Part shown: positions 770 through 15,408 of the stretch, one piece after another
Layout of the letters: each line of letters starts with the position of its first letter
How positions within the stretch are numbered: the first letter of the stretch is position 1
From: Bacteroidia bacterium
Lineage (GTDB): Bacteria; Bacteroidota; Bacteroidia; B-17B0; Aurantibacillaceae
DNA length: 64,000 nucleotides
Direction of reading: 5' to 3'
Assembly: GCA_014378485.1 (NCBI GenBank)
Contig: JACMNO010000061.1
Coordinates: forward strand, 1-64,000
Notes under the pieces: generated by a model
Told to the model about the DNA's origin: nothing
Database searches by the model: none
The model's input: only the letters and a program-made list of their open reading frames with translations
Translations under genes and position numbers: made by a program

Positions 770-1249
770 CTATTTTTTAGTCTTCTGTGACTTCGATTGT
801 ATAAATAGCCCTTCATAAAGCGCAATCCATTCTTTGGGCGTCATTTTTTTGCAGAGCTCAGCAATGAGTTCAACAGGAATGTCTTCCGGTTTTTTAAACC
901 GAATGCAGCTTTTGCCCATATCTAATTTTGCTTTACTGTGCTTGGGAAATTCGGTAACAAACCAGTTCAGTAATTTAGGATCAGAGTAAATGCCCATGTG
1001 GTAAAAGGCGATGAAATTCTTTTGGTTGGCAATACTTATAAAGCCCAGGGGCAGGGAAGGATCACAATGATAACCGGCAGGGTAGGTTTTGTGTGGCACC
1101 ACATAGCCGATCATGCCGTATGACATGCATTCTTCAAAACCTTTGGGAATATTTTTAAGAATGGTATCGCGTAATTTAGTAAAGGCCTGAACCCGCTCTG
1201 CAGGAAGCTCCTTTAAATAATCTGTAACATTGGTAGTTTTGGATTGCAT
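770..1249 (-). CDS. DUF1801 family protein
   Basis: A 159-residue protein of the DUF1801 (YdhG-like) family, cytoplasmic and of unknown biochemical function. Family features are the N-terminal helix that follows a 'YLKELPAER' segment, the 'FEECMSYGMIGY' strand, and a C-terminal 'DMGKSCIRFKK' strand followed by helices ending in 'TPKEWIALYE'. I place the start at the ATG at 1249 because the family begins near 'MQSK'; an ATG 19 codons upstream would add a cysteine- and tyrosine-rich tail that is probably not translated. It is transcribed away from the MazG operon, so the two share a divergent promoter region of about 150 bp. G+C is clearly higher than in the neighbouring 1399-3905 operon. Confidence 0.85.
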   Translation of the reverse strand: MQSKTTNVTDYLKELPAERVQAFTKLRDTILKNIPKGFEECMSYGMIGYVVPHKTYPAGYHCDPSLPLGFISIANQKNFIAFYHMGIYSDPKLLNWFVTEFPKHSKAKLDMGKSCIRFKKPEDIPVELIAELCKKMTPKEWIALYEGLFIQSKSQKTKK

Positions 1250-1398
1250 GGCATCTGGTTTAAAACAGTAATAAATATAGGGTTTTGGTTGTAAAATACA
1301 ACACACCGAATTGCGCTATTAATAGAAGGAATAAATAGTCAAATAATATGTTGTACAATTCACAGTAAAGCTTATTTTTGGAAGAAGCATTATTGGAT

Positions 1399-1737
1399 AT
1401 GAGTGATATACAGGAAATAATAAATGAATTAGTGAAATTTAGAAATGAACGTGATTGGGCGCAGTTTCATGATACCAAAAATTTAGCTGTGGCAATTTCA
1501 ATTGAGGCTGCTGAGTTAAATGAATTATTTCTTTGGAAAGACCTAAAGGATAGTGATGCCGTTGATAAAGAGAAAATAAAAGAAGAATTGGCAGACGTTT
1601 TAGCTTATGCTTTTTTGCTAGCAGAGAAACAGGGCTTGGATGTTAAACAAATAGTATTGGATAAGATTAAACGTAACGGAGAAAAATATCCCGTTGATAA
1701 ATCAAAAGGCTCTGCTAAGAAATATAACGAGTTATGA
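1399..1737 (+). CDS. MazG-like nucleotide pyrophosphohydrolase
   Basis: A 112-residue all-alpha NTP pyrophosphohydrolase of the MazG / RS21-C6 (dCTPase) group. Known members cleave (d)NTPs to the monophosphate and pyrophosphate. The metal-binding pattern is present: E36-x-x-E39 in 'IEAAELNE' and E63-x-x-D66 in 'EELADVLAY', plus the C-terminal 'RNGEKYPVDKSKG' that is typical of the group. The start is the ATG at 1399; a TTG at 1378 would add seven residues without family support. Its stop overlaps the ATG of the next gene by four bases (ATGA), so the two are surely co-transcribed and translationally coupled. It could be house-cleaning, but coupling to a nuclease-helicase suggests a role in depleting or sensing nucleotides during phage infection or DNA damage (inference). 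Confidence 0.88.
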   Translation: MSDIQEIINELVKFRNERDWAQFHDTKNLAVAISIEAAELNELFLWKDLKDSDAVDKEKIKEELADVLAYAFLLAEKQGLDVKQIVLDKIKRNGEKYPVDKSKGSAKKYNEL

Positions 1738-3905
1738 GTTTATCTTTCGAATTAGCAGTTGAAGTATCTGAACAGTATGATTTTAATAAAGCATCGTTAA
1801 GTAAAATCGAAGCAAATCCCTGGGTTAAAAACCAATGGCCTCTTGTTTATTTTATAAGAAATGATGGTAGAAAAGAGGCTTATGTTGGTGAATCGACTAA
1901 TGCGCTAAACAGGATAAAAAATCACCTTGATAACCCTAAAAAGACGGTATTAAATAAGATTTCAATCATTGGTTCAGATAAGTTTAATAAATCTGTAACC
2001 CTCGATATAGAGTCGAAGCTTATTCAATATATTTCTGCCGAAGAGACTTATGAATTACAAAATGGTAATTATGGTTTAATAAATCATACCTATTATCAAC
2101 AGGATTTATATAAAGACATTTTCAGGGAAGTTTGGACTAAATTAATTGAAAAAAAGATCGTCAGTAAATCACTTGAAGAAATTGAAAACTCTGAATTATT
2201 TAAATATTCACCTTATAAGACATTAAACGAAGATCAATATAGATCTGTATTGGAAATTATTAAAGGTCTTGGTACAAAAAAGTCGAACAGGATTTTTGTG
2301 AAAGGAAGCGCAGGAACAGGTAAAACCATTCTCGCAACCTACTTAATAAAATTATTGAACTCCGATGTTTCAGATAATAATGATGATTATAATAAGGACG
2401 AAATATTGGAAGTTAATTTAATCAGAGTCTTTAAAGAGAAGTATCCAAATGCTGAAATTGGCTTTGTTGTGGCAATGAGTTCCTTACGTAAAACATTACA
2501 GAATGTATTTCGGAAAGTACCCGGATTAAAATCATCAATGATTATTAGCCCTTCTGATACATTTAAAAAGAAATATGATCTCTTAATAGTAGATGAGGCT
2601 CATCGGTTACGTCAATATAAAAACATTGGATGGATGGGTGTTTTTAGACAAAATAATATGAAACTCGGATTGGATGATAAAGGAAATGAACTTGACTGGA
2701 TTCTTGCAAACAGTAAAAACCAGATTTTCTTTTATGATGCAGCGCAATCTGTAAAACCATCAGACATAGATGGATCTCATTTTGATGAGTTATTATCCCA
2801 GAATAATTTAATAATTGAATTGTCTTCTCAAATGCGAGTTCAAGGCAAGGATTATATAAGTTTTGTAGATAAGCTATTAAATCTGAAACTAAACCACACT
2901 GAAGTTTATGAAGATGAAAATTATGAACTTTTAGTATTTGATTCATTAAAGGTCTTGTATGAACAGCTTACGGTTAAAGAAAATAAACATGGTTTATGCA
3001 GATTAGTAGCAGGTTATTCATGGCCCTGGTTATCTAAAGAGAATAAAAAAGCTATTGATATTATCATTGACGGATTAGAATTACGATGGAACCAAACAGA
3101 TAAAGATTGGATCAATTCACCTAATGCTTTTAAAGAAGTTGGGTGTATTCATACGACTCAAGGGTACGATTTAAATTATACAGGAATTATTTTCGGGGAG
3201 GAAATTATTTATAATAAACATAGTGGTAAAATTGAAATCGACGCCTCAAAGTATTTGGATCAGAATGGAAAAAAAGGAATCGCTAATCCAGATGATTTGA
3301 AGGCATACATCATTAATATTTACAAAACAATTATGTACCGGGGCATTAAAGGAACTTTTATTTATGCTTGCAATGAAAATTTGAGAGATTATCTGAAAAC
3401 TCATATATCTTCTTTTAAAAATGAATTACCCTTTAGAATTATTCCTTTAAACAATGCAAAGCCATTTATTAATAGTGTTCCTTTAGTTGATATTTCAGCT
3501 GCAGCTGGGTCTTTTAGTAATCTGCAGATTTCGTCAGACTTCCAGTGGATTGAGTTGCCAATGAATTACACACCTAAGGAAGGCTACTTTGTTTGTAAAG
3601 TAATCGGAGAATCAATGAATAAAATAATCCCGAATGGTTCTTACTGTTTATTTAAACAAGATGAAGGCGGCTCAAGGAATGGTAAAATAGTTTTAGTTGA
3701 ACGTAAAGCCATCCAGGAAGATTCGGGCTCACGATATACTGTTAAAGAATACCACAGCAAAAAGAATATAGATAATGACCAATGGAACCATCAATCTATT
3801 ATTTTAAAACCATTATCTGATTCTAAAGAGTTTAAAGATATTGTTTTGAATGAAGAAGAGGCGATTGAATTAAAAGTTGTTGGTGTGTTTGTTGGGTTTT
3901 TATAA
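1734..3905 (+). CDS. GIY-YIG nuclease / DUF2075 (Schlafen-type) helicase / S24 peptidase fusion
   Basis: A 723-residue three-domain protein. Residues about 35-105 fit a GIY-YIG nuclease: 'PLVYFI', 'AYVGES', R60 in 'NALNRIKNH', and a candidate catalytic Glu in 'LDIESKLI' (E93). Residues about 160-570 are a DUF2075 superfamily-1-like ATPase: Walker A 'KGSAGTGKT' (190-198), Walker B 'LLIVDEAH' (283-290), 'HTTQGYDLNY' (473-482) and 'MYRGIKGTF' (534-542). Residues about 585-723 look like a LexA/UmuD-type S24 domain with a likely Ser-Lys dyad, S627 ('IGESMN') and K671 ('YTVKEY'). There is no signal peptide, so it is cytoplasmic. It overlaps the MazG-like gene by four bases. The region is more AT-rich than its flanks, which hints at transfer. 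Role is inferred: nucleic-acid cleavage in defence or stress, perhaps controlled by self-cleavage. Confidence 0.87.
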   Translation: MSLSFELAVEVSEQYDFNKASLSKIEANPWVKNQWPLVYFIRNDGRKEAYVGESTNALNRIKNHLDNPKKTVLNKISIIGSDKFNKSVTLDIESKLIQYISAEETYELQNGNYGLINHTYYQQDLYKDIFREVWTKLIEKKIVSKSLEEIENSELFKYSPYKTLNEDQYRSVLEIIKGLGTKKSNRIFVKGSAGTGKTILATYLIKLLNSDVSDNNDDYNKDEILEVNLIRVFKEKYPNAEIGFVVAMSSLRKTLQNVFRKVPGLKSSMIISPSDTFKKKYDLLIVDEAHRLRQYKNIGWMGVFRQNNMKLGLDDKGNELDWILANSKNQIFFYDAAQSVKPSDIDGSHFDELLSQNNLIIELSSQMRVQGKDYISFVDKLLNLKLNHTEVYEDENYELLVFDSLKVLYEQLTVKENKHGLCRLVAGYSWPWLSKENKKAIDIIIDGLELRWNQTDKDWINSPNAFKEVGCIHTTQGYDLNYTGIIFGEEIIYNKHSGKIEIDASKYLDQNGKKGIANPDDLKAYIINIYKTIMYRGIKGTFIYACNENLRDYLKTHISSFKNELPFRIIPLNNAKPFINSVPLVDISAAAGSFSNLQISSDFQWIELPMNYTPKEGYFVCKVIGESMNKIIPNGSYCLFKQDEGGSRNGKIVLVERKAIQEDSGSRYTVKEYHSKKNIDNDQWNHQSIILKPLSDSKEFKDIVLNEEEAIELKVVGVFVGFL

Positions 3906-3941
3906 AAGGAATTGAAATAATTTAAATTCATATACATTACT

Positions 3942-5249
3942 ATGACACACTTTATAAAATATACCTGTAAGTTCATTGCTTGCTTGGTTTTGATAAACAT
4001 CAGCTTTTCGATACAAGCGCAGGAAAATTGGGCTGCTTATTCCAAAAAAATTGATGTTAAGCCATACATTGGAAAAAACTTTAGGTTTAAAACAAAAATA
4101 AAAACGAGTGCAACAGCCGATAGTGCGGCTGCACGCCTTTGGGTGAGAATAGATATGACTACTGGCTATAATTTTTTTGATAATATGCAAAAACGGCCCG
4201 TTCGCTCAGTTGAATGGAAAGAGGTAAGCATTGAGGGAAAAATAAACGAAAAAAGCGAGTACGCTGTTGTGGGTGCTTTATGTGAATTTAATGGTAAATT
4301 TTATTATGACGATTTACTATTTGAAATTGAAAATTCGCCCAACAACTGGACTGCTCTTTACGCAAACAATTTCGAAAAAAATAATGACGATTTGCAAGCG
4401 GGCATTTTTATAAAGGATTATGGTATCAATACTCATTTTAAGAAAAGCATAACTACCCAAAACACCAATCACTGTTTAATGATTGAAGGCAGCGGTATTA
4501 TTGCATACGGTCATAACAAAGAAACCGGGCATTTTGCTGAAGTAAATGGCATTAAATTATATTATGAAATATATGGTAATGGGCAACCACTTTTGGTATT
4601 ACACGGCAATGGGGGCTCTATTGAAAATGCATCGCCTTTTTATCCCGACTTAATAAAACACTATCAGGTAATTGCTATCGACAGCCGCGCACAAGGAAAT
4701 TCTACCGATACCAACGAACCGCTTACCTATGATAAGATGACAAGTGATATTAACGAACTATTAACTCAGCTGCATATTGATTCCACTTATGTTTGGGGAC
4801 AAAGTGATGGCGCAATATTAGGCATATTGCTAGCGAAAGATTATCCTAAAAAAGTAAAAAAAGTGTTGGCATTTGGTTCAAATATGCAGCCCGATAGTAT
4901 GGCTATTTTTAAATGGGATATCATAGCAACGCAGCATATTTGCGAAAAAAGTAAAGATCAAACAGAGGTAAAGCTAAATCGCATGATGTTAGACTACCCT
5001 AATGTACCATACACTGAACTTAAAAAAATTAAAGCACCGGTTTTAATTATGCAGGGCGATAGAGATGTGATACGACCAGAGCATAGTTTGAAATTATTTC
5101 AACATATTCCAAACTCACAGCTCTGCATTTTACCAGGTACTACACACGGTGCTTGCTGGGAAAAACAAACTATGTTTTTAAGTATTTTACATGAATTTTT
5201 TGACAAACCTTTTACTATGCCCGATAGCAAGGAAATTTATGGGGAGTAA
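3942..5249 (+). CDS. secreted alpha/beta hydrolase with N-terminal beta domain
   Basis: A 435-residue protein with a signal peptide of about 27 residues ending 'SFSIQAQ'. Residues about 30-190 form a beta-rich domain I do not recognise; it may be a jelly-roll or carbohydrate-binding-like fold. Residues about 195-425 are an alpha/beta hydrolase: oxyanion segment 'LHGNGGS', nucleophile elbow 'GQSDGA' (the Ser), acid 'GDRDVI', and catalytic His in 'GTTHGA'. The nearest known type is the small-molecule esterase/lactonase or proline-iminopeptidase-like group; the substrate cannot be told. It starts 36 bp after the helicase fusion gene but is richer in G+C and exported, so it is probably a separate unit. 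Periplasmic or outer-surface location is expected. Confidence 0.85.
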   Translation: MTHFIKYTCKFIACLVLINISFSIQAQENWAAYSKKIDVKPYIGKNFRFKTKIKTSATADSAAARLWVRIDMTTGYNFFDNMQKRPVRSVEWKEVSIEGKINEKSEYAVVGALCEFNGKFYYDDLLFEIENSPNNWTALYANNFEKNNDDLQAGIFIKDYGINTHFKKSITTQNTNHCLMIEGSGIIAYGHNKETGHFAEVNGIKLYYEIYGNGQPLLVLHGNGGSIENASPFYPDLIKHYQVIAIDSRAQGNSTDTNEPLTYDKMTSDINELLTQLHIDSTYVWGQSDGAILGILLAKDYPKKVKKVLAFGSNMQPDSMAIFKWDIIATQHICEKSKDQTEVKLNRMMLDYPNVPYTELKKIKAPVLIMQGDRDVIRPEHSLKLFQHIPNSQLCILPGTTHGACWEKQTMFLSILHEFFDKPFTMPDSKEIYGE

Positions 5250-5348
5250 TAGATAATAGTTACTACTATATGTTATTACAGAAAATACTCCATACCCATG
5301 CATTTGCAATGCTGCGACACTTCTACCACAACAAAAATTAGCACATGT

Positions 5349-5780
5349 TTATGTTGTCGCAAACCGTTTGGCCTGTACCAGCGATCTTCTTTTCTTATAG
5401 TGCTCATACAGTCTGCCACCTATCCATGCCAATGGCACACCTAGTAATGCCTTTGTAATGTTATACCAAGTAGGTGAATGATCATATAATATGAACGCTC
5501 CTACTACCCACATAAATAACTCTTTGGTACCGAGTATTAACACGGCTTTGCGTGATTGGTTTTTTGCAATTTTGGCTGTAACCATTGCGCCTATGATAGC
5601 ATATATACTATGATAGAATAAAGTGAACTGAACCTGATTATCATCCAGCATTGGTTTAAACAAGAGTGGATGCTGGCCTAACAGATTTAATATAACATGG
5701 GTTAGCATGGTAAGGAACATGGTGGCGGCAATACCGGCAATAATGGAGACAATGAGTCTGTATGGAATGCGATGTGTCAT
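5349..5780 (-). CDS. small multi-pass membrane protein
   Basis: A 143-residue inner-membrane protein with about four hydrophobic segments: 'IVSIIAGIAATMFLTML', 'LFYHSIYAIIGAMVTA', a middle segment around 'FMWVVGAFILY', and 'ITKALLGVPLAWIGGRLY', ending in a basic tail 'YEHYKKRRS'. I chose the ATG at 5780 because translation from 5840 would put an extra hydrophobic stretch and a His-rich linker before the basic 'MTHRIPYR' start. I do not recognise the family. It stands alone, convergent with the hydrolase gene. Confidence 0.7.
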   Translation of the reverse strand: MTHRIPYRLIVSIIAGIAATMFLTMLTHVILNLLGQHPLLFKPMLDDNQVQFTLFYHSIYAIIGAMVTAKIAKNQSRKAVLILGTKELFMWVVGAFILYDHSPTWYNITKALLGVPLAWIGGRLYEHYKKRRSLVQAKRFATT

Positions 5781-6066
5781 AACGTGGTGTGGGTTTGTAT
5801 GGTACAAAATTACAATGAAAAACAGCGGAGATACCAACACTTTGATAAGATCCCGTTTTTATACTCCAAAGGCATTGCGTTGTTGTTTAGGCGAGGGTAG
5901 ATGTAAAATGAAAAGTGCAACAATTGTTTTCAAATAGTTCAATAAATCTTACTACTTGCCTGCTGTTTAAACTTTAGCATTTTGATTTTAAGGCATTTAA
6001 ACGTTTAGATAGCCAATGCTACAAAACATAGCAATAGATGCCTACGGTCTTCTATAGCTTTGTAAC

Positions 6067-6516
6067 ATGAAACTTGTTGTTAAACTCCCAAAAGATAAAC
6101 CCCCTTTTATAGGTATTGTTTTTGATCATGAGAGTGATGCCGAAAAAGTAAACCAGAACCTGATTACCGATCATAAGTATGCCGATTATCGAATCGTGTT
6201 TGAGTTTATAAGTGATTGGGTCAATGTAAAGCTCATCTCCAATTCTATTCCGGCTGTTAAGTTCTACAATAAGCTGTCGTATGATAAAGAAAAGCTCATT
6301 GCCTGGTTTTATATTACCAAAAACATGAAGGGATTTAATTTCTCTCAATTATATGTGTACGGTAATAAAGAGTGTGTAGCGAAAACAATTGCTAAACAAA
6401 AATTGTTTGTACTAAAGGTAGATAGCTACGAAGTGCATACCGGTGAACCCGATGACTTTGAACCGGCCAATGTGATCAGGGCCACTAATAATAAGAACAG
6501 GCTCTATGAACCTTGA
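6067..6516 (+). CDS. hypothetical cytoplasmic protein
   Basis: A 149-residue protein with no signal peptide, membrane segment or known motif. The N-terminus 'MKLVVKLPKDKPPFIG' looks like a beta strand; the middle has alternating strands and helices ('DYRIVFEFISDW', 'LIAWFYITKNM'), and the C-terminus is polar. The start ATG follows 'TTTGTAAC'. It is a lone gene between an AT-rich spacer and the 22-bp minisatellite, which begins 10 bp after its stop codon. Codon use is like that of its neighbours, so I believe it is a real gene, but I cannot assign a function. Confidence 0.65.
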   Translation: MKLVVKLPKDKPPFIGIVFDHESDAEKVNQNLITDHKYADYRIVFEFISDWVNVKLISNSIPAVKFYNKLSYDKEKLIAWFYITKNMKGFNFSQLYVYGNKECVAKTIAKQKLFVLKVDSYEVHTGEPDDFEPANVIRATNNKNRLYEP

Positions 6517-6525
6517 GAAGTAGCA

Positions 6526-6876
6526 TAGTACGCTGAGCAATAGGTGGTAGTGCGCTGAGCAATAGGTGGTAGTGCGCAGGTGTGTTGGTGCTAGTCCGCG
6601 GGTGTATCACAACCTATCCGTGGGTGTATAGGTAATAGTCCACAGGTGTATCACTCCCTATCCGCGGGTGTGTGGGTGCTAGTCTGCGGGCGCATCAGTA
6701 CTAGTCTGCGGGTGTATCGGCACTAGTCTACTGGTGGGTAGGTAGTAGTCCACGGGTGTGCAGGTAGTAGTCTACGGGTGTATCAGTGCTATTCCGCGGG
6801 TGTGTCACGGCCTATTCCCATGGGTATCACGCCCTATTCCAAAATATTTTCACGTAATACTCCGGTGCATCACTAC
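6526..6876. repeat. GC-rich degenerate 22-bp tandem repeat (minisatellite)
   Basis: About fourteen consecutive 22-bp units run from 6526 to 6833, with a decaying tail to about 6876. The core is TAGTCCGCGGGTGTATC followed by five variable bases. Units begin at 6526, 6548, 6570, 6592, 6614 and so on every 22 bases. Adjacent units differ at several sites, so the array is old. G+C is far above the surrounding sequence. The period is not a multiple of three and no open frame runs through it, so it is non-coding. Confidence 0.9.
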
Positions 6877-7566
6877 TAATTCCATTGTTTTTTATTAAAA
6901 AAGGACAGGGCAAAGGCATCAGTTCAAACAATTTTTACACCGATGCAACACGTTTGGATACTCTTCAAATGTTAATGCAACATTTCTACAGAAAAAATTT
7001 CGTTACCAGATATCAATTCATTTCCACCACTTATGGTGCGGTTACAGTCAGCCGTCAATTAAAACACGTTTTAACTTTTTTTAGAGCTTGTTAAAATTTT
7101 GTTTTGGCACGCGGCTTGGAATGCCTGTGGTAGGCTCACCGCAGAGACACGGAGAAGAAGGGATGAAAGAGACTAAGGAGATTGAAGGGATGGAAGAGAG
7201 GGTAGGGAAGGAAGGGATTAGAGAGACTAAAGAGATTGAAGGGATAGAAAAGAATGGAAAGATTAAAAGCCCGCGTTAAGGATTGAAGTGGAAATCCTTT
7301 TGTGATCACGCCGGGGCGTGAGAACAAAAGATTGAAACGAAAAGCCTGACCCGACGATAGGAGGGTAACGCCCAAACAATAAATAAGAAAAGAATGACAC
7401 CAAAAAAAACTTAAAAACATCTTGCGATGAGTAGCAGGGCAAAAGTTAGCAAGCGACATTACCAAAACAATTCACGAAAGAAATAGTTTTAAATTAAATC
7501 ATAAAATAAATCGCCTTTGATCACGCCAGTGCGTGATGCTAAAGGCAAATTAAAAAAAGTAAAAAA
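6877..7566. other. intergenic stretch with purine-rich repeats and small hairpins
   Basis: No supported gene. Two short open frames at 6885-7094 and 7088-7279 lack family or codon support. Contents are the purine-rich 54-bp repeat at 7157-7252, a hairpin TCACGCC / GGCGTGA at 7306-7321, and a two-part hairpin at 7513-7546 (outer GCCTTT / AAAGGC, inner ATCACGC / GCGTGAT). The phrase GTAGGCTCAC near 7129 recurs near 8791. Confidence 0.5.
7157..7252. repeat. 54-bp purine-rich direct repeat, two copies
   Basis: The 42-base segments 7157-7198 and 7211-7252 match at all but a few positions and start 54 bases apart. They are almost pure purine on the plus strand. The period is a multiple of three and the open frame through it repeats a Lys/Glu pattern, but codon bias gives no support for translation. 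Confidence 0.75.
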
Positions 7567-8262
7567 ATGAGTAATTCTAAATTCATCCCCTTAGGGGATT
7601 CAGAAAAAGTTGTATGGTTAAACAACTTTACAACTAAGATGGGTACCAATGCAACCCTTCTTGGTTTCACACCCGCAGAAATAACCGCGCTGCAAAAAGA
7701 CAATGCGTTCTTTCAATACCTTGTCAGCACCATTGAACTCTTCAGGCAAAACCTTTTGAACTTCATAGGCTACAAGAACATGGCCAAGTACGCTAAAAAG
7801 GATCAGCACAACGGCGCTTTGCCTGCGGTTCCTTCGATGGGAACTCCACCGCCGGCTGTAACCGAAGGAATCTTTGAACGTGCATCCAAAATGGCAGGCC
7901 GTGCAAAATTAAGCCTTAACTACACGGAAGCAATCGGTGCCGACCTGGGAATCATTTCGCCTTCATCAACGGTAGATGTGGCTACGTTGCAACCTGAACT
8001 GAAGATCAAAATTGATGTGGGGAAACCACACGTGAGATGGATAAAAGGTTACTCCGATGCCCTTGACCTTTATGCCGATCGTGATGATGGTCAAGGATTT
8101 ATTTTAATTGGCCGTTTCACCCGCAACGAGTATTTAGACATTACGCCTTTAGCCACTGGTAAAGTGTTTGATGAATGGAAGTACAAAGGCATCTATGTGA
8201 TTGCTGATACACAGGTAGGGTTGTACTCTAATGTGATTAGTGTGGATGTAAAAAGAATGTAG
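7567..8262 (+). CDS. conserved hypothetical protein of a Bacteroidota-type orphan family
   Basis: A 231-residue soluble protein. The N-terminal half is helical ('DSEKVVWLNNFTTKM', 'FTPAEITALQKDN', 'FFQYLVSTIELFRQNLLN'), followed by a proline linker around residues 85-105, a second helical part, and a C-terminal beta domain from about 145 that reads like a fibronectin-type sandwich ('HVRWIKGYSDALDLYADR', 'WKYKGIYVIADTQ'). I recall similar uncharacterised proteins in other Bacteroidota, where they lie in repeat-rich spacers, but cannot name a function. There is no signal peptide. A rho-independent terminator follows at 8285. G+C is higher than nearby genes. Confidence 0.8.
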   Translation: MSNSKFIPLGDSEKVVWLNNFTTKMGTNATLLGFTPAEITALQKDNAFFQYLVSTIELFRQNLLNFIGYKNMAKYAKKDQHNGALPAVPSMGTPPPAVTEGIFERASKMAGRAKLSLNYTEAIGADLGIISPSSTVDVATLQPELKIKIDVGKPHVRWIKGYSDALDLYADRDDGQGFILIGRFTRNEYLDITPLATGKVFDEWKYKGIYVIADTQVGLYSNVISVDVKRM

Positions 8263-8284
8263 GTTGTTTTATTTCTCTTCCTTT

Positions 8285-8320
8285 AAAAATCCTTTCGCCA
8301 ACTGGCGGAGGGATTTTTTA
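8285..8320 (+). terminator. rho-independent terminator
   Basis: The stem AAAATCC...CGCC pairs with GGCG...GGATTTT across an AACT loop and is followed by T-rich sequence. It lies 23 bp after the stop of the gene ending at 8262. Confidence 0.8.
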
Positions 8321-8403
8321 TTTATATTAATTGTCTTTTAATACAACGGTTCGCTCAAAAGTTCAGTGAATTTTTGTTGTGTCCCAAGTAACAGTATAAA
8401 GAT

Positions 8404-8667
8404 TTATATGTTTCTGTAAAGATCGGATAGATCTACAAAAGCGGTAAATAAGTGTAAACGCTCTTCGCTTGGATCCAGGAATTCTACATCTTCAATATCG
8501 TTAGAATGGCAATTGTAGTAAACTTCAACAAAGTCTCCATCTACAATGTAAAGGTTAATGAAGTAACCAAAGTATTTAATTCTGGTAATGTATTCGCCGC
8601 TATTATTTACAATCTCTATCCGTTCGTCAAGTGTGCTGGAATAAAACATATTTAGATCTAATGCCAT
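8404..8667 (-). CDS. small hypothetical protein
   Basis: An 87-residue acidic cytoplasmic protein with no signal or membrane segment. It looks mainly beta-stranded ('ERIEIVNNSGEYITRIKYFGYFINLYIVDGD') and ends in a helix ('LHLFTAFVDLSDLYRNI'). I do not recognise it. It has a clean start and stop and no competing frame, and stands alone between a terminator and a repeat-containing spacer. Confidence 0.6.
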   Translation of the reverse strand: MALDLNMFYSSTLDERIEIVNNSGEYITRIKYFGYFINLYIVDGDFVEVYYNCHSNDIEDVEFLDPSEERLHLFTAFVDLSDLYRNI

Positions 8668-8854
8668 TATCGTAATCTTTTGGATTCTGATTTAAAGGTA
8701 GTGGATGAAAAAAGGTTTACTATTAATTATTCGGTAACAAAGGGTAAACAGTAGCCGTATTCTTAAATTCTTTTTGTGCTGAACAATGCTGTAGGCTCAC
8801 GTTATGAAAGAAGTTGACTCTCGAAAAAAAAGGCAGGGCTGATAACAGAAAAAA

Positions 8855-9781
8855 CTACTTCAAAGGCAATCTGTAAATCAACACTGCCTGAAATAACAGT
8901 CCATCTGAAAAAGTTTTGTTCAGCTGCCGGCGATGGTCATTAATATAAGTTAACGGAAATGCAAGATCCGTTTTATCATCATCATGGTACACTCGATACT
9001 TTCTACCCAAAGAATATCCACACTTGGTTAACAAAATAATGTTTTTAGGTAACGTAAATTTCAAGTATCCATAAAGTTCATTGGTTACTCTTACCACATA
9101 AGAGCTCTTTAGTCCGGGAGAAATATTTGATACATGGTAGGAGCGTGTTTGGCCAAAGAAGTTTGCACCAATACTCATGAATTTGATGAGCCGGTAATTC
9201 ATATCAGCTGATAAAGGCAGCATCACATTCAATTCGAACCTGGTGTTATTACTTAAATAATACACACCTAATAGTGGCACAAAGAAAGGGCCAAACCGCT
9301 CGGCGTTATAATACAAACCATAGCGGTAATTTAGGTTTTTATTAACTGCATATTTAAATAAAGCAATGCCGCCTAACTGCATATCTTTTTGAGTGAGTGT
9401 TCCAAAGTTGGTAGCCAGTTTTGGTAACAGTACCATTGTGGTAGAAAAATGTTCGTTGAAATTATGGTTGACTCCTAGTTTAAGTGTGATACCACTTAGA
9501 CTTTGCATTGCCTCATCCGGAAATAATTTTGTATTGATGTTCTCGTAAATGGCACCGGTTAAAAAAGCTGTTTTCTCATTTAGTTTGATGGGTAATGAAA
9601 GATCTGCTCCGTATTCGTTCAGCACCGATTGGCTCCTGCTTGAATCAAAAGTATTGAGGGGTGTAGTGCTGGCGTTGAGTTTTACGAGATCAACATAGTT
9701 TTGGCCATGTGTGTTTATTACTATGATGAATTGCAATGTTAAAACATAGCAGAAAATCCTGAATTTATATGATGAAAACAT
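8855..9781 (-). CDS. outer-membrane beta-barrel protein (DUF6268-like)
   Basis: A 308-residue protein with a signal peptide ending near 'NTHGQ' (residue 27). The rest alternates amphipathic strands ('AALFKYAVNKNLNYRYGLYYN'-type pattern) and ends 'LIYRLPLK', as in outer-membrane barrels. The layout resembles the DUF6268 family, but I hold that loosely. It probably sits in the outer membrane; ligand unknown. It stands alone on the minus strand. No terminator is obvious. Confidence 0.75.
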   Translation of the reverse strand: MFSSYKFRIFCYVLTLQFIIVINTHGQNYVDLVKLNASTTPLNTFDSSRSQSVLNEYGADLSLPIKLNEKTAFLTGAIYENINTKLFPDEAMQSLSGITLKLGVNHNFNEHFSTTMVLLPKLATNFGTLTQKDMQLGGIALFKYAVNKNLNYRYGLYYNAERFGPFFVPLLGVYYLSNNTRFELNVMLPLSADMNYRLIKFMSIGANFFGQTRSYHVSNISPGLKSSYVVRVTNELYGYLKFTLPKNIILLTKCGYSLGRKYRVYHDDDKTDLAFPLTYINDHRRQLNKTFSDGLLFQAVLIYRLPLK

Positions 9782-9996
9782 TCTGTGCTTTTTGATATAT
9801 CAATACTAAGATTTATTTGTGATTTTACAAAATCGGGATTAGTGCAGTATCGTGCAGTTTCAGCATTCGGCACCCAGCCTGACAAACCCCGGCTAACCCG
9901 CCGAACGGAAAGTTTAAATGTTTTATATTTGTAATACATGAATCAACGGCTAAATAACCTGGGCTATTAAAAAAGTTTCTGTAAAGATTTCCGCAA

Positions 9997-10315
9997 CAAT
10001 TTTACAAGGCTGAAGCAATTTGGTAGAAACTATTTTGGGGCAGCAAGCTGAACGGAAAAAGTTTCGCGGACAACACAGTGCAGGGAATTATAGTTTAGAT
10101 TTTCAAGGTTAGAGACAAAAGCTCACGTTTGAAATGGATGGCGCCAATCATTTTACCGAAGAATGAGTGGTGGAGATAAACAATGCACATTATATTTAAA
10201 TGAATGCGATATTACTATCATTAGGTTTGAAAACAAATTGATATTTGATAAGACAGATTGGGTGGTGCATGAAATAATGAAAAATTTTAAAGAATCTGTA
10301 AAAAGTGAAACCTAA
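9997..10315 (+). pseudogene. decayed DUF559 (VSR-like) endonuclease gene
   Basis: Translating 9997 onward gives 'EAIW', an in-frame TAG, then 'KLFWGSKLNGKKFRGQHS' and 'AGNYSLDF', then after a frame change 'KLTFEMDGANHFTEE', and after another frame change 'GDKQCTLYLNECD' and 'ITIIRFENKLIFDKTDWV' up to TAA at 10313-10315. These match, in order, the conserved blocks of DUF559 proteins (N-terminal LW..L, RRQ..I.NYIVDFYC, L..E.DG..H, and the C-terminal VIRF.N..V block). At least one stop and two frameshifts break it. It is a remnant with no intact product. Confidence 0.8.
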
Positions 10316-10380
10316 TCTTAAGGATTATATAATATCAAGTGTAACATTCTGCTATAACTTTACAATATAAAATCATAATC

Positions 10381-10608
10381 ATGGACATATATCTTAAGGA
10401 AAAAAAGAAAACTGTATTTGTTAACTATAAAACAGTTCGCAGTGCCATTCATTTAAATAAAATAAATGCAGACCAAAAAGAGGCATTAAACACGCAATGG
10501 GCAAGCAACTGGTTAGAACAGGTTACGGAAATGAAAATGGAATTAACCCCTGTTAACCAAACGGGTTTCAAATATAATAAGCTGATCATTAAATGGTGGG
10601 AGAACTAG
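10381..10608 (+). CDS. small hypothetical protein
   Basis: A 75-residue basic cytoplasmic protein ending 'KLIIKWWEN'. No motif is recognised. The segment 'SAIHLNKINADQKEALNTQW' looks helical. It begins 65 bp after the DUF559 remnant and is followed by a hairpin terminator at 10672, which supports a real transcription unit. Confidence 0.55.
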   Translation: MDIYLKEKKKTVFVNYKTVRSAIHLNKINADQKEALNTQWASNWLEQVTEMKMELTPVNQTGFKYNKLIIKWWEN

Positions 10609-10671
10609 ACTTTCCACATTACTTTTTTCTATTATGAAAAAAAGTACGGAAAGAAAATATATCATTAAATA

Positions 10672-10705
10672 AAAACGCCTGCAATCTATTGATTACAGGC
10701 GTTTT
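10672..10705. terminator. bidirectional terminator
   Basis: The stem AAAACGCCTG...AATC pairs with GATT...CAGGCGTTTT with one mismatch. It lies between the plus-strand gene ending at 10608 and the 3' end of the minus-strand tRNA, with A/T runs on both sides. Confidence 0.8.
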
Positions 10706-10718
10706 AACTTTTTAAAAG

Positions 10719-10792
10719 TGACCCCGATTGGATTCGAACCAATGGCCCACAGCTTAGAAGGCTGTTGCTCTATCCAGCTGAGCTACGGGACC
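10719..10792 (-). tRNA. tRNA-Arg (anticodon TCT)
   Basis: On the minus strand a 74-nt cloverleaf begins GGTCCCG and ends CGGGGTCA. The anticodon arm loop is CTTCTAA, giving TCT. The D arm reads GCTCAGCTGGATAGAGC and the T loop TTCGAAT. The acceptor stem has G-T pairs at positions 2 and 3. CCA is not encoded. Confidence 0.95.
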
Positions 10793-10923
10793 ATATCCAG
10801 AAATATAAAGTATATTGCTGAATTTGGAATGCGAATTTACTGTTTTTTTTCATACTAATAGTTACTTTTTTAAAATCTTTGGTTTTCACAATATTTTGTT
10901 ATTTTTAGAAAATTATAGCACCC

Positions 10924-12876
10924 GTGACTAAACTATCCGTTGTTATTGTTAATTACAATGTCAAGCACTTCATCGAACAGTGCCTGTTTTCTGTATTAAA
11001 AGCTTCTGAGAACTTTCAATGTGAGGTATTTGTCGTAGATAACAATTCCGTAGATGGTTCTGTAACACTAATTAAAGAGAAATTTCCCCAGGTAAATTTA
11101 ATCGTCAATAAAACAAATACCGGTTTTTCTGTGGCTAATAACCAGGCAATTCGTCTAGCCAAAGGTGAATATGTATTGCTCTTGAACCCTGATACAGTGG
11201 TGCAGGAGGATACCTTTTCAAAGATCCTTGCTTTTATGGATGCACATCCTGAAGCTGGCGGTTTGGGTGTAAAGATGTTGGATGGCCAGGGTAATTTTGC
11301 CCCAGAATCAAAGCGCGGTTTGCCAACTCCCGAAGTGGCCTTTTATAAGATGTTTGGCTTTTCACGATTTTTTCCGAAATCCAAACGCTTTGGCAAATAT
11401 CACCTCTCCTATTTACCCGAAGATCAGCTGAGCGAGATTGATGTGATGAGTGGTGCTTTTATGCTTATTCGTAAATCTGTGTTAGATCAAATAGGTTTAT
11501 TGGACGAAACATTTTTTATGTATGGAGAAGATATCGATCTGTCATACAGGATCAAAAAAGCAGGGTATAAGAATTACTATTTTCCGGATACGCAGATTAT
11601 TCATTATAAAGGAGAAAGTACTAAACGAAGCAGTCTGAACTATGTGGTGATCTTTTATAAGGCCATGGCTATTTTTTCCAAAAAGCATTTTAGTGGTTCT
11701 AACGCATTTTGGTTTAATGCGCTCATTCACTTAGCTATTTTTTTAAAAGCAGGGTTGGCTTTATTGTCACGGTTTTTAAAGGCGTTCACAGTTCCAATTT
11801 TTGATTTCTCAATCATCACAATGGGATTATTCGTGATTAAAAATATTTATCAGCAAAACACGGGTGTTGACGGAGATATCTATTCGCAGAAATTATTGAG
11901 CGTTGCTTTTCCATTATACGCTATTGCGTGGATCATCATGGTGTATTTTAACGGTGGATATGATAAGCCCATTAAGCTTTTGAAAATTGTTCGTGGTGTA
12001 GTGCTAGGAACAGTATTTATTTTATTAGGCTATTCATTGTTACCGGAATCACTGAGGTTTTCGCGCGCGCTCATTTTATTAGGAACCAGCTGGGCTCTTA
12101 TATGTTTCTTATTAACGCGTGTGTTATTTCATTTCCTAAAATTTAAATCATACAGTTTAAGTACCGCCAAATTAAAACGCATTGCCATTATTGGAGAAGA
12201 GCAGGAGTTTTACCGCGTAGCGGATTTACTGAAAGAAACGCAGATTAATCCCGGCTTTGTTGGTTTTGTAAGCGCTGAAATAAACGGAGTTCATAATCCG
12301 AATTTCATCGGTAAAATAAACCAGATTGATGAAATCATAAAAGTACACCAGATTAATGAAATTATTTTTTGCGCAAAAGATATCAGTTCGCAATTCATTA
12401 TTAATAACATGCTCACTCTTGTATCAAGCGGTGTGGATTTTAAGATAGCGCCACCGGAAAGTTTATCCATCATTGGCAGTAATAATATTGATACCGCGGG
12501 AGATCTTTATATGATCGATGTCAATAGTATCTCCAAATCCAATAATAAACGAAACAAACGTTTATTGGATATTGCTGTGAGCATAATAGCCATTGTATTA
12601 AGCCCAATCTTACTATTCATACAGTTTAATAAAGGCAATTATTTTTTAAATTGTTTCAATGTGCTGTTCGGTTTTTATTCCTGGGTTGGTTACGGCAAAG
12701 TAACTGATAAATCATTACCTGAAATTAAACGCTCCGTACTTTCGCCGGCTATGCTGCTGAGCGCTGATGCGGAGAATAATAAAATTAAACTGGCAAACCT
12801 GCGTTATGCCAAGGATTACAGAATAGAAAATGACATTGTAATAATTTGGAAGTGCCGAAAAAAACTAGGGGTATAA
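10924..12876 (+). CDS. family 2 glycosyltransferase fused to membrane and CoA_binding_3-like domains
   Basis: A 650-residue protein. Residues 1-260 are a GT2 transferase of the rhamnosyltransferase type: 'SVVIVNYN', 'VVDNNSVDGS', the nucleotide-sugar/metal site 'LLLNPDTV' near 90-98 and the catalytic 'YGEDIDLSYR' near 200. Residues about 265-410 contain several membrane segments. Residues about 420-530 resemble the CoA_binding_3 domain of polyprenyl-phosphate sugar transferases ('LKRIAIIGEEQEFY'). The end keeps a WcaJ-like 'KRLLDIAVSIIAIVLSPI' helix and a final 'RYAKDYRIENDIVIIWK' but lacks the usual catalytic block. It starts with GTG; no ATG fits. It probably acts at the inner membrane in surface-polysaccharide or lipid-glycan assembly. 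Confidence 0.85.
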   Translation: MTKLSVVIVNYNVKHFIEQCLFSVLKASENFQCEVFVVDNNSVDGSVTLIKEKFPQVNLIVNKTNTGFSVANNQAIRLAKGEYVLLLNPDTVVQEDTFSKILAFMDAHPEAGGLGVKMLDGQGNFAPESKRGLPTPEVAFYKMFGFSRFFPKSKRFGKYHLSYLPEDQLSEIDVMSGAFMLIRKSVLDQIGLLDETFFMYGEDIDLSYRIKKAGYKNYYFPDTQIIHYKGESTKRSSLNYVVIFYKAMAIFSKKHFSGSNAFWFNALIHLAIFLKAGLALLSRFLKAFTVPIFDFSIITMGLFVIKNIYQQNTGVDGDIYSQKLLSVAFPLYAIAWIIMVYFNGGYDKPIKLLKIVRGVVLGTVFILLGYSLLPESLRFSRALILLGTSWALICFLLTRVLFHFLKFKSYSLSTAKLKRIAIIGEEQEFYRVADLLKETQINPGFVGFVSAEINGVHNPNFIGKINQIDEIIKVHQINEIIFCAKDISSQFIINNMLTLVSSGVDFKIAPPESLSIIGSNNIDTAGDLYMIDVNSISKSNNKRNKRLLDIAVSIIAIVLSPILLFIQFNKGNYFLNCFNVLFGFYSWVGYGKVTDKSLPEIKRSVLSPAMLLSADAENNKIKLANLRYAKDYRIENDIVIIWKCRKKLGV

Positions 12877-12924
12877 AAGCCTGTCCTTTGTTACTTTTAT
12901 AATCCTAATCTTTGTATTTTATTT

Positions 12925-15408
12925 ATGTCTTTCAATGCCTTACATATTCAACTTCCGATTGTAGAAATTATTCCCGACGTAAAAAAAATACTGAAGGATC
13001 ATTCCACATTAATTGTTGGTGCGCCACCAGGTGCAGGCAAAAGCACGTTGCTCCCCCTCGCTTTATTTGAAGAAGATTTTTTGCAGGGTAAAAAAGTAAT
13101 TATGCTGGAACCCCGTCGTTTGGCAGCACGTAGCATCGCCATGCGAATGGCAGAACTCCTTGGAGAAGAAGTGGGGCAGACCGTTGGTTACCGTATTCGT
13201 TTTGAAAATCGTGTAAGCAAAGAAACACGTATTGAAGTGGTCACAGAAGGAATTCTCACCCGCATGTTGCAAAGTGATAACGCTTTGGAGCAATATGGGC
13301 TTGTTATTTTTGATGAGTTTCACGAACGTAATTTACAGGCCGATCTTGCTCTTGCACTTTGCAGAGAAGCACAACAGGTATTAAGGCCGGATTTGCGATT
13401 AATGATTATGTCGGCTACACTCAACATTACTCAACTACAATTATTACTAAAAGCCCCGGTGATAGAAAGTATGGGCCGGCAACATCCGGTTGAGGTCATA
13501 CATACAAATGATGCCGATGAATACTTGTTACCCGAATTAGTGGCGCAAACCATTGCCCGTGCCGTAAAAGAACATGAAGGAGATGTATTGGCATTTTTAC
13601 CAGGCGAAGGCGAGATCCGTAAATGCGAAGAAATTTTACGTTCCCAGCTCTCTGAGTTCAGCATTCATCCCTTGTATGGAATGTTACCTCAAAATGAACA
13701 GTTTCTCGCTATTATGCCAAATAAAAACGGCCAGCGAAAAATAGTTTTGGCCACATCCATTGCGGAAACCAGTTTAACCATTGAGGGTATTCGCATTGTT
13801 GTGGATTCAGGCTTTGGGCGAAGATCGTGTTTTGACCTGCCTTCTGGTTTATCACGATTGGAGACTTTACGTATTTCAAAAGATGCCGCCATTCAGCGGG
13901 CGGGCAGGGCAGGCCGGTTAAGTGCTGGTGTGTGTTACCGATTGTGGACCAAGGCTACACATGAACGCATGGCCGAACATCGCATCCCGGAGATTATGGA
14001 AGCAGATCTCTGTGCGTTAGTGCTCGAACTATGCAAATGGGGAACAGATGACATTACTAAAATGTGTTGGTTAACCTTGCCTCCAAAAAATTCCCTGCTG
14101 CAGGCTCATGATACCTTAACTCAAATTGGCGCCTTAGAAAATGGAAAGATAACTGAACACGGAAAACAAATCCATCAATTGGCATGTCATCCGCGTATTG
14201 CCCACATGCTTTTACTGGCAGAATCTACCGGGATGAAACAGCTAGCCTGTGATATTGCCGCCATACTTGAAGAACGGGATCCTTTACCGAAAGATAGTGG
14301 CATTGATCTTAACCTTCGCATTGAAGCCCTTAGAAGAGCACGAAGTCATAACGCTTTTAATAATAAATTTAAACGTATTGAAAAAAATGCAGCCAGCTAT
14401 CGTAAATTATTAAACCTTAATGCAGATAATGATCCTGTGGATCCGAATGAAACAGGACTTCTTCTTGCTTATGCCTATCCTGAAAGAATTGCTTCTGCTA
14501 AACCGGGAAACAATGCGCAATTTCAGCTGGCTAACGGTAAGGTTGCAACAGCCGGACATAAGGATGACCTGGCACATGAAGCATGGCTTGCAATTGCCAA
14601 TATGGATTTGAGAGATGGCCTTGGAAAAATATTTATGGCAGCGCCGCTTAATCCTAAAGATCTTATTCATTTAGTGAAAGAAAAACAAAACATAGCTTGG
14701 GACACGCGTAAAGGCGGATTGATATGCTCAACTGAACTTAAGATTGGAAGTATTTTGTTGCAATCAAAACCTTTGACCAAACCTGATGAAACCTTAGTGC
14801 TCGATGCTATTTGTCACGCCATTAAGCTAGAAGGAGAAAGTTTGCTTGATTTTACGGATCAGTTCACGCAATTGCAAAATCGCATCAGCAGCCTTGCCCT
14901 ATGGAATCCGGATGAACAATGGCCTGTGGTAAATACATTATATTTACTAAACACCGCACAGGATTGGCTTGGGCCTTATGTGAAAGACATACGAAAAACA
15001 GACGGCCTTAAAAAAATAGATCTCTCCGAATGTTTACTGCATTCCTTATCATGGGAACAGCAGCAGATTTTAGAACAACTTGCCCCATCAAAATTAGAAG
15101 TCCCCAGTGGTTCAAAGATCCGTATGGAATATTTTGCAAATGGTACAGCACCGGTAATTGCTGTTCGTTTACAGGAAGTATTTGGAATGGAAGACACTCC
15201 AACTGTTAACTACGGTAAAATAAAAACAGTCTTACATTTATTATCTCCCGGTTACAAACCTGTGCAGGTAACAACGGATTTAAAAAGTTTCTGGAACAAT
15301 ACTTACCATGAAGTAAAAAAAGAATTGCAAAGGCGTTATCCAAAACATGCATGGCCGGATGATCCTTGGAGCGCTAAAGCCATTGCAAAGGGTAGGAGTA
15401 TTAAATAA
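12925..15408 (+). CDS. hrpB: ATP-dependent RNA helicase HrpB
   Basis: An 827-residue DEAH-group helicase. Walker A is 'GAPPGAGKS' (32-40), motif II is D130-E-F-H ('DEFHERN'), motif III 'MSATLN', motif V 'TSIAETSLTI', and motif VI 'IQRAGRAGR'. The C-terminal HrpB-specific domain ends 'DPWSAKAIAKGRS', the family signature. Length matches the family. It is cytoplasmic; its substrate RNA in bacteria is not well known. It lies 48 bp after the GT2 fusion gene in the same direction and could be read through from it. Confidence 0.96.
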   Translation: MSFNALHIQLPIVEIIPDVKKILKDHSTLIVGAPPGAGKSTLLPLALFEEDFLQGKKVIMLEPRRLAARSIAMRMAELLGEEVGQTVGYRIRFENRVSKETRIEVVTEGILTRMLQSDNALEQYGLVIFDEFHERNLQADLALALCREAQQVLRPDLRLMIMSATLNITQLQLLLKAPVIESMGRQHPVEVIHTNDADEYLLPELVAQTIARAVKEHEGDVLAFLPGEGEIRKCEEILRSQLSEFSIHPLYGMLPQNEQFLAIMPNKNGQRKIVLATSIAETSLTIEGIRIVVDSGFGRRSCFDLPSGLSRLETLRISKDAAIQRAGRAGRLSAGVCYRLWTKATHERMAEHRIPEIMEADLCALVLELCKWGTDDITKMCWLTLPPKNSLLQAHDTLTQIGALENGKITEHGKQIHQLACHPRIAHMLLLAESTGMKQLACDIAAILEERDPLPKDSGIDLNLRIEALRRARSHNAFNNKFKRIEKNAASYRKLLNLNADNDPVDPNETGLLLAYAYPERIASAKPGNNAQFQLANGKVATAGHKDDLAHEAWLAIANMDLRDGLGKIFMAAPLNPKDLIHLVKEKQNIAWDTRKGGLICSTELKIGSILLQSKPLTKPDETLVLDAICHAIKLEGESLLDFTDQFTQLQNRISSLALWNPDEQWPVVNTLYLLNTAQDWLGPYVKDIRKTDGLKKIDLSECLLHSLSWEQQQILEQLAPSKLEVPSGSKIRMEYFANGTAPVIAVRLQEVFGMEDTPTVNYGKIKTVLHLLSPGYKPVQVTTDLKSFWNNTYHEVKKELQRRYPKHAWPDDPWSAKAIAKGRSIK

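Follow-up and report, generated by a model that had tools for sequence, protein, structure and literature searches.

What would a small nucleotide hydrolase do in one operon with a nuclease-helicase that ends in a LexA-like tail? The question is raised by two overlapping genes near the left end of a 64,000-nucleotide stretch of a Bacteroidia bacterium of the Aurantibacillaceae (assembly GCA_014378485.1, contig JACMNO010000061.1, positions 1 to 64,000; the whole stretch is called the window below). The first gene encodes a MazG-like nucleoside triphosphate (NTP) pyrophosphohydrolase, the second a fusion of a GIY-YIG nuclease, an SLFN group 3 (SLFN-g3) helicase and an S24 domain. The reading that we prefer, at a probability of about 0.5, is that the pair is a horizontally moving defence cassette, in which a restriction-like nuclease-helicase, equipped with a latch that cleaves itself, would act together with a (modified-)deoxycytidine triphosphate (dCTP) pyrophosphatase. 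What can be read directly from the DNA is an operon with conserved active sites, a conserved self-cleavage site and a mobile setting.

Pairing of MazG with the helicase

The features of the pair are the following:

1399..1737, plus strand: MazG-like (DCTPP1-like) NTP pyrophosphohydrolase gene, 112 aa (PF12643, 8.9e-20)
1734..3905, plus strand: GIY-YIG / SLFN-g3 helicase / S24 fusion gene, 723 aa (model pLDDT 84.8)
1833..2093, plus strand: GIY-YIG nuclease domain, approximately residues 34-120 (PF01541, 1.5e-4)
2292..3371, plus strand: SLFN group 3 helicase domain (PF09848, 1.1e-60), Walker A at residues 191-198 and DEAH at 287-290
3486..3887, plus strand: S24 (LexA-like) domain (PF00717, 2.7e-7), Ser627 at 3612-3614 and Lys671 at 3744-3746
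3504..3509, plus strand: predicted LexA-like self-cleavage site Ala591-Gly592, from sequence conservation and alignment to LexA 3k2z

Both open reading frames (ORFs) are intact, and their coordinates bear out the 4-bp ATGA overlap described in the initial annotation of this DNA: the MazG stop codon occupies 1735-1737 and the ATG of the fusion gene 1734-1736. The MazG ORF has an alternative start, TTG at 1378; the ATG at 1399 is backed by the alignment of five relatives. The low G+C content of the operon, another point of that annotation, is real but mild, i.e. 31.4% as compared with 35.3% in the part of the window to the right of position 10718, where 3 of 204 overlapping segments of the same size are equally low.

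Relatives were collected by scanning a genome collection with two patterns from the fusion protein. Sixty of the 142 stretches retrieved encode a relative, and conservation was counted in 61 rows, i.e. the window plus these 60 loci. According to the record titles 58 of the loci belong to Bacteroidota, one is gammaproteobacterial and one comes from a Taylorbacteria bin; three of them (L051, L058 and L065) appear to be the same contigs as those of genomes G035, G016 and G059. With this helicase-only bait, a gene of the same MazG subfamily was found upstream and on the same strand in 60 of 60 loci. The spacing between the two genes is -4 in 51 loci, -11 in two and +2 in two, and the remaining values (-14, +10, +27, +49 and +615) occur once each. 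Pairing is far beyond chance, a rule and not a local arrangement; adjacency across genomes, on which the initial annotation had made its proposal depend, is not rare.

The rule does not extend to SLFN-g3 helicases in general. In 247 genomes of the phylum, 31 PF09848 matches had E < 1e-40, and 30 of them became loci and were examined. MazG adjacency for all such helicases was rejected, since 17 of the 30 show none in the fetched stretch. The helicases bearing GIY-YIG, the window's own included, have an adjacent MazG in seven of seven cases, and so have five helicases with another N-terminus; in L085/L148 the MazG gene lies about 1.1 kb upstream of the helicase, behind a TPR gene. Among 87 genomes of the family, nine contain the MazG subfamily, six of them beside an SLFN helicase and one (G032) one gene away.

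Active sites and the LexA-like tail

The MazG-like protein matches PF12643 with 71.2 bits (Pfam cut-off 27). Its metal motif, earlier called intact, is present throughout, with E36, E39, E63 and D66 in 61 of 61 rows, and its profile finds dCTP pyrophosphatase 1 (DCTPP1 or RS21-C6) as best match at 2.5e-21, a resemblance absent from the initial annotation. A study of the human enzyme (PMC4491611) names eight pocket residues, and ties Trp47 and Trp73 to better use of 5-methyl-dCTP. Counted along the profile alignment, the equivalents W20, E36, E39, W46, E63 and D66 are invariant in the 61 rows, the equivalent of Tyr102 is Tyr in 36 and Phe in 25, and that of His38 is Leu in 60 and Ile in one. 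In the cytosine pocket proper (His38/Trp47/Trp73/Tyr102) both tryptophans are kept, the tyrosine is kept or is Phe, and the histidine is replaced. In other words, the window-type MazG shares with DCTPP1 the fold family and seven of the eight pocket positions, one of them as Tyr or Phe (PMC4491611), and differs from it, as compared by sequence, in Leu (60/61) or Ile for His38. Judging from these residues, the protein probably destroys cytosine building blocks, as a (modified-)dCTP pyrophosphatase would.

The tight coupling of two genes with a small upstream partner could also be that of an addiction or anti-plasmid module, in which a toxic nuclease-helicase is tempered by MazG and selection acts for the persistence of a mobile element. 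MazG is indeed found as an orphan or a relic where the helicase is missing: G042 has an orphan MazG beside a Bro-N-like gene, and G083 a MazG relic of 44 residues. We nevertheless hold this explanation to be quite improbable, because MazG keeps its whole active site and, except for His38, a pocket like that of DCTPP1 in every row, which is beyond the needs of an antitoxin that only binds.

The motifs that were seen earlier in the fusion protein stand as well. Y39, Y50, G52, R60, H64, E93 and N112 of the GIY-YIG domain are found in 61 of 61 rows, the counts of Y50 and G52 being biased by the bait, which included AYVGESTN; the Walker lysine is likewise found in 61 of 61. The catalytic roles in GIY-YIG nucleases belong to two tyrosines, an arginine, a glutamate and an asparagine. 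When residues 1-145 were modelled alone (mean predicted local distance difference test, pLDDT, 84.3), the GIY-YIG domain of UvrC had the highest probability (0.80-0.82) among the 50 Foldseek matches listed, at ranks 3-4, with a template modelling (TM) score to the target of 0.61-0.64 and E values of 0.26-0.40. Support from the modelled fold for a GIY-YIG domain is modest. The helicase matches PF09848 over residues 187-546 with 206.2 bits (cut-off 24). DUF2075, the name used in the initial annotation, is the older name of this family. The helicase is of Schlafen type by Pfam, as had been proposed, but the protein lacks a Schlafen nuclease domain, which is absent from its 16 Pfam matches at E<=0.1. 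A model of the whole fusion from a 34-row alignment (pLDDT 84.8, predicted TM score 0.72) gave Foldseek matches to Upf1 (2.8e-9), SLFN11 (9.0e-9) and RecD2 (1.1e-8); since the whole-length TM score by query is only 0.25-0.29, these matches run through the helicase part.

The S24-like C-terminus that had been noticed is supported by Pfam (Peptidase_S24), and to it we add a self-cleavage site at Ala591-Gly592, absent from the initial annotation, which by sequence is complete and LexA-like. The domain is present in 53 of 61 rows, with Ser627 and Lys671 in 53 of 53. At position 591-592 the 53 rows have Ala-Gly in 50, Ala-Ser in two and Cys-Gly in one. In the S24 profile search LexA 3k2z was found at 7.1e-5, with Ala-Gly aligned on Ala-Gly. 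The S24 region lay outside the bait, so its conservation is informative, and the self-cleavage chemistry appears to be under selection. The Ser-Lys pair and the Ala-Gly site are shared with LexA, UmuD and CI; unlike in these proteins, the domain is fused behind a nuclease-helicase, and no DNA-binding repressor domain was found by Pfam. The Cys-Gly belongs to the divergent S24 tail of the Taylorbacteria bin (L069:7298-9439), as in UmuD. Eight rows are without the domain: the sequence of L057 is truncated where its contig ends, both L062 and L067 are broken, and L046, L060, L061, L063 and L070 end in their own stop codon before it. On a tree of 58 rows, i.e. without L057, L062 and L067, the loss amounts to four changes.

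The mechanism that we propose is built on these features; whatever it says on activities, substrates, signal, latch direction and defence is prediction. MazG would hydrolyse dCTP, probably 5-modified dCTP, and would starve or clean the pool for phage replication. The fusion would travel along nucleic acid by its superfamily 1-type helicase and cut with GIY-YIG, like a one-chain restriction nuclease, its targets being foreign or replicating DNA. The signal for the latch would be damage, most simply RecA on single-stranded DNA, upon which the tail would cut itself at Ala591-Gly592, free residues 1-591 (nuclease and helicase), and so arm the enzyme. The earlier proposal, one protein cleaving nucleic acid and the other changing nucleotide pools, fits the conserved active sites, with both activities as predictions only.

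The tail could also be imagined as an off-switch or timer: the fusion would be active as long as it is uncut, and the loading of RecA on host DNA would end this activity through self-cleavage. Chemically, self-cleavage is compatible with both directions, and the five tail-less rows with their own stop codon, together with the four changes on the tree, indicate that the enzyme core can exist alone. This alternative seems doubtful to us, as a cut that keeps nuclease and helicase joined and whole is a poor way to inactivate them; arming is the simpler reading of the latch because cleavage leaves residues 1-591 whole.

Genomic setting of the pair

The pair lies in an insert with the following borders:

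1307..10717, no strand: insert holding the pair, 9,411 bp, between the DUF1801 gene and tRNA-Arg
770..1306, minus strand: DUF1801 gene, left border (PF08818, 4.2e-19), with a match in 16 of 20 genomes of the genus, its own included
10718..10792, minus strand: tRNA-Arg (tct), right border, the same tRNA in G069, G075 and G084

Fifteen other congeners have a match to DUF1801, and the slot next to this gene was compared in 10 of them. The insert is absent in G069 and G084, in which DUF1801, tRNA-Arg and a glycosyltransferase gene are contiguous, with 28 bp (G069) and about 76 bp (G084) between the first two; the glycosyltransferase gene (window 10924-12876) is 89 and 85% identical in these genomes, respectively. 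G075 has 7,609 bp of other content between DUF1801 and tRNA-Arg. In G074 DUF1801 is followed by HsdM, HsdS, GmrSD and HsdR (type I restriction and GmrSD), and in the remaining six congeners by other genes, the tRNA being outside the fetched stretch in these six and in G074. Within the family, the fusion has matches in 8 of 87 genomes and the intact pair is found in four (G000, G016, G035 and G059); G081 has a broken pair, G011 only a C-terminal piece of the fusion at a contig start, and the matches in G032 and G040 are to other helicases. The setting is a variable insert and not the conserved housekeeping context that would have spoken against the original proposal, and by these sequence comparisons it is mobile. 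No att-like repeat of the tRNA end was found in 1200-10930. In a phage collection seven records match, none over 80% of the query and three of the seven via the S24 part only; among plasmids there are 39 matching records, none exceeding 80% at a single place. Of these 46 records eight were inspected, and one of the eight, Microcystis phage Mwe-JY31, contains the MazG subfamily.

The surroundings of the relatives were compared with the defence families of PADLOC at E<=1e-10, with as many as three neighbours per side for each of the 60 pairs (337 of 338 genes; the gene omitted is one piece of the broken L062 helicase). The three scans covered 113, 103 and 121 genes and gave 97, 195 and 77 matching families, respectively. 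Among the matches listed are mREase_IV (1.5e-239), PycC (5.9e-226), AbiP2 (8.7e-209), HerA (5.1e-160), SIR2 (1.7e-117), SoFic (2.4e-113) and Cas9 (1.7e-82). In a control of 20 fixed-position regions from 20 genomes, unmatched for genome type, 35 families were found for 120 genes, the best at 1.3e-91. Summed over the three scans, the family matches are 369 for 337 flanking genes vs 35 for 120 control genes; families recur from scan to scan, and the sums do not count genes. The association of the pair with defence islands is above background. At L045:9035-12844 the helicase ORF is followed, after 26 nt, by a TPR-GreAB-C-PIN conflict gene.

The reading as a defence cassette is based on several lines: the 60/60 pairing with the same overlap in 51 loci; the near-invariant catalytic residues in all domains; the profile matches to LexA and DCTPP1, with W20 and W46 in every row; the patchy presence (4/87) and the absence of the insert in two congeners; the type I restriction-modification and GmrSD genes after the same DUF1801 gene in another congener; and the strong PADLOC matches of the flanking genes as compared with the weaker control. 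A number of observations weigh against it. The pair is not among the models of PADLOC 2.0, MazG has no match there, and the fusion has partial matches only, the best being Nhi at 3.7e-10. As a whole, the interpretation of the initial annotation, a candidate defence system, is partly supported. The GIY-YIG domain scores 22.4 bits against a Pfam cut-off of 22.6, i.e. 0.2 below, and its fold search is weak; His38 of the DCTPP1 pocket is lost; and the five rows without S24 domain on full contigs make the latch dispensable. No integrase or recombinase was seen in the insert, and one scan of viral contigs gave no relative. Finally, the two proteins hardly co-diverge. Co-divergence was rejected as weak, with r 0.26 and 23 of 2000 permutations as high in the 58 rows of the tree, and r 0.14 and 203 of 2000 for the MazG core in 56 rows (also without L069 and L070).

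Part of the same evidence can be accommodated by a stress or repair module, in which the nuclease-helicase would act on stalled or damaged host DNA, MazG would clean damaged dNTPs and the tail would link the pair to SOS, phage protection being secondary. The UvrC-like GIY-YIG, the SLFN11/RecD2-like helicase fold and the LexA-like site agree with this, and MazG enzymes are known for house-cleaning (PMC10014863). The patchy presence, the exchangeable insert and the restriction-rich surroundings would be unusual for a repair gene, and we consider a primary role in repair unlikely.

Further contents of the insert were noted. An alpha/beta hydrolase gene (window 3942-5249) directly follows the pair; its best match in the 19 other genomes of the genus is 36% over the hydrolase part, and it is probably a passenger of the insert. 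Tandem 22-nt repeats that are G+C-richer than their surroundings are found at 6526-6827, and purine-rich 9-nt tandem repeats at 7148-7262.

Modular relatives and known systems

The same MazG is also found ahead of SLFN helicases that are approximately 620 residues long and differ in their N-terminus. Read by eye, this N-terminus has invariant E69, D80, E98-x-K100 and Q131 in seven of seven rows, and looks like a PD-(D/E)XK nuclease; no PDB match was found for it. Moreover, in 10 of 60 loci MazG has a TPR gene of approximately 650 residues directly upstream (one copy split, one shorter), for example:

L012:5700-7673: TPR/HExxH gene
L060:1682-3652: TPR/HExxH gene
L070:5406-7367: TPR/HExxH gene

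HExxH is present in eight of eight aligned TPR proteins, and in the one tested Pfam reports TPRs only. By its motif the protein is a candidate third component, a metallopeptidase. The idea that this gene replaces the S24 tail was not supported (independent pairs, median p 0.5). In Microcystis phage Mwe-JY31 (PP438423.1, L202:894-5128), deposited as a complete phage genome, the TPR gene, MazG and the alternative helicase occur together, annotated as hypothetical. L132 (G083:C5:11000-29000) has an intact TPR/HExxH gene followed by the MazG relic and, by eye, an HsdM-like gene, which would fit a decay of the module next to a type I restriction-modification locus. On Lactobacillus amylolyticus plasmid p1 (L198:1-9716) a GIY-YIG/SLFN helicase is not accompanied by this MazG subfamily; the annotation of its cluster lists an NTP pyrophosphohydrolase, a DUF262 protein, a restriction endonuclease and a further nuclease.

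In L130 (G032, 6726-13740) the gene order is MazG, Bro-N, alternative helicase, Nudix and PLD/ResIII/DUF3427 enzyme, i.e. two pairs of NTP pyrophosphohydrolase (MazG, Nudix) and helicase in a row, the second helicase being SauUSI-like. The PLD/ResIII/DUF3427 enzyme carries an S24 tail with AAAG and GESMN motifs, 49% identical to that of the window, and genes of the locus match PDC-S13 (4.6e-131), PDC-S07 (4.1e-49) and mREase_IV (6.6e-230) in PADLOC, the mREase_IV match being the enzyme with the S24 tail. A Nudix gene and a PLD/ResIII/DUF3427 enzyme also stand upstream of MazG in L027 and L029, ending at a distance of 43 and 29 nt from it; the one enzyme tested there has no S24. SauUSI cuts DNA with 5-methylcytosine and 5-hydroxymethylcytosine (PMC3874153), and the parallel with the SauUSI make-up suggests that the MazG and Nudix pairs may both face modified cytosine. 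Taken further, the arrangement might be a modular two-layer immunity against phages with 5-modified cytosine: MazG or Nudix would clear modified dCTP, the nuclease-helicase would destroy modified DNA, the LexA-type tail on two unrelated helicases would license the enzyme by a DNA-damage signal, and TPR/HExxH would be a second, proteolytic control in some loci. We offer this extended scheme as speculation, unlikely to hold as a whole.

As compared with known systems, the window fusion resembles SauUSI-type enzymes (PADLOC mREase_IV) as a one-chain nuclease and helicase, and the L130 enzyme in particular by its S24 tail and by following a Nudix gene as the fusion follows MazG; unlike these enzymes it has GIY-YIG and an SLFN-g3 helicase, and no PLD or DUF3427 by Pfam. 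With PDC-S41 it shares the SLFN-g3 helicase family, and one flanking gene in the set of 121 matches PDC-S41 at 4.3e-287, whereas the fusion itself matches only at 1.9e-5 over residues 360-552. Bacterial Schlafen defence proteins (PMC12839542) likewise have a Schlafen-type helicase, but the fusion is without their nuclease domain. In DefensePredictor MazG figures as a predicted, unvalidated defence domain, and Burroughs et al. 2015 is cited; its main text does not mention DUF2075, S24, GIY or Schlafen (PMC13092281). No publication on the MazG-fusion pair was found in the open-access literature, preprints being outside the search. The work of Burroughs et al. 2015 may deal with part of the subject. 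The domains are known; as far as we have seen, their coupling with MazG and the self-cleaving latch are undescribed, and from its sequence features the pair looks like an undescribed antiviral system.

If the latch works, the fusion would be a restriction-like enzyme under the control of LexA-type self-proteolysis, and would link the SOS signal directly to nucleic-acid defence. The coupling also gives the predicted, unvalidated defence role of MazG a precise two-gene test (PMC13092281). That a SauUSI-like enzyme and an SLFN helicase have related tails suggests that the tail may be a reusable control part.

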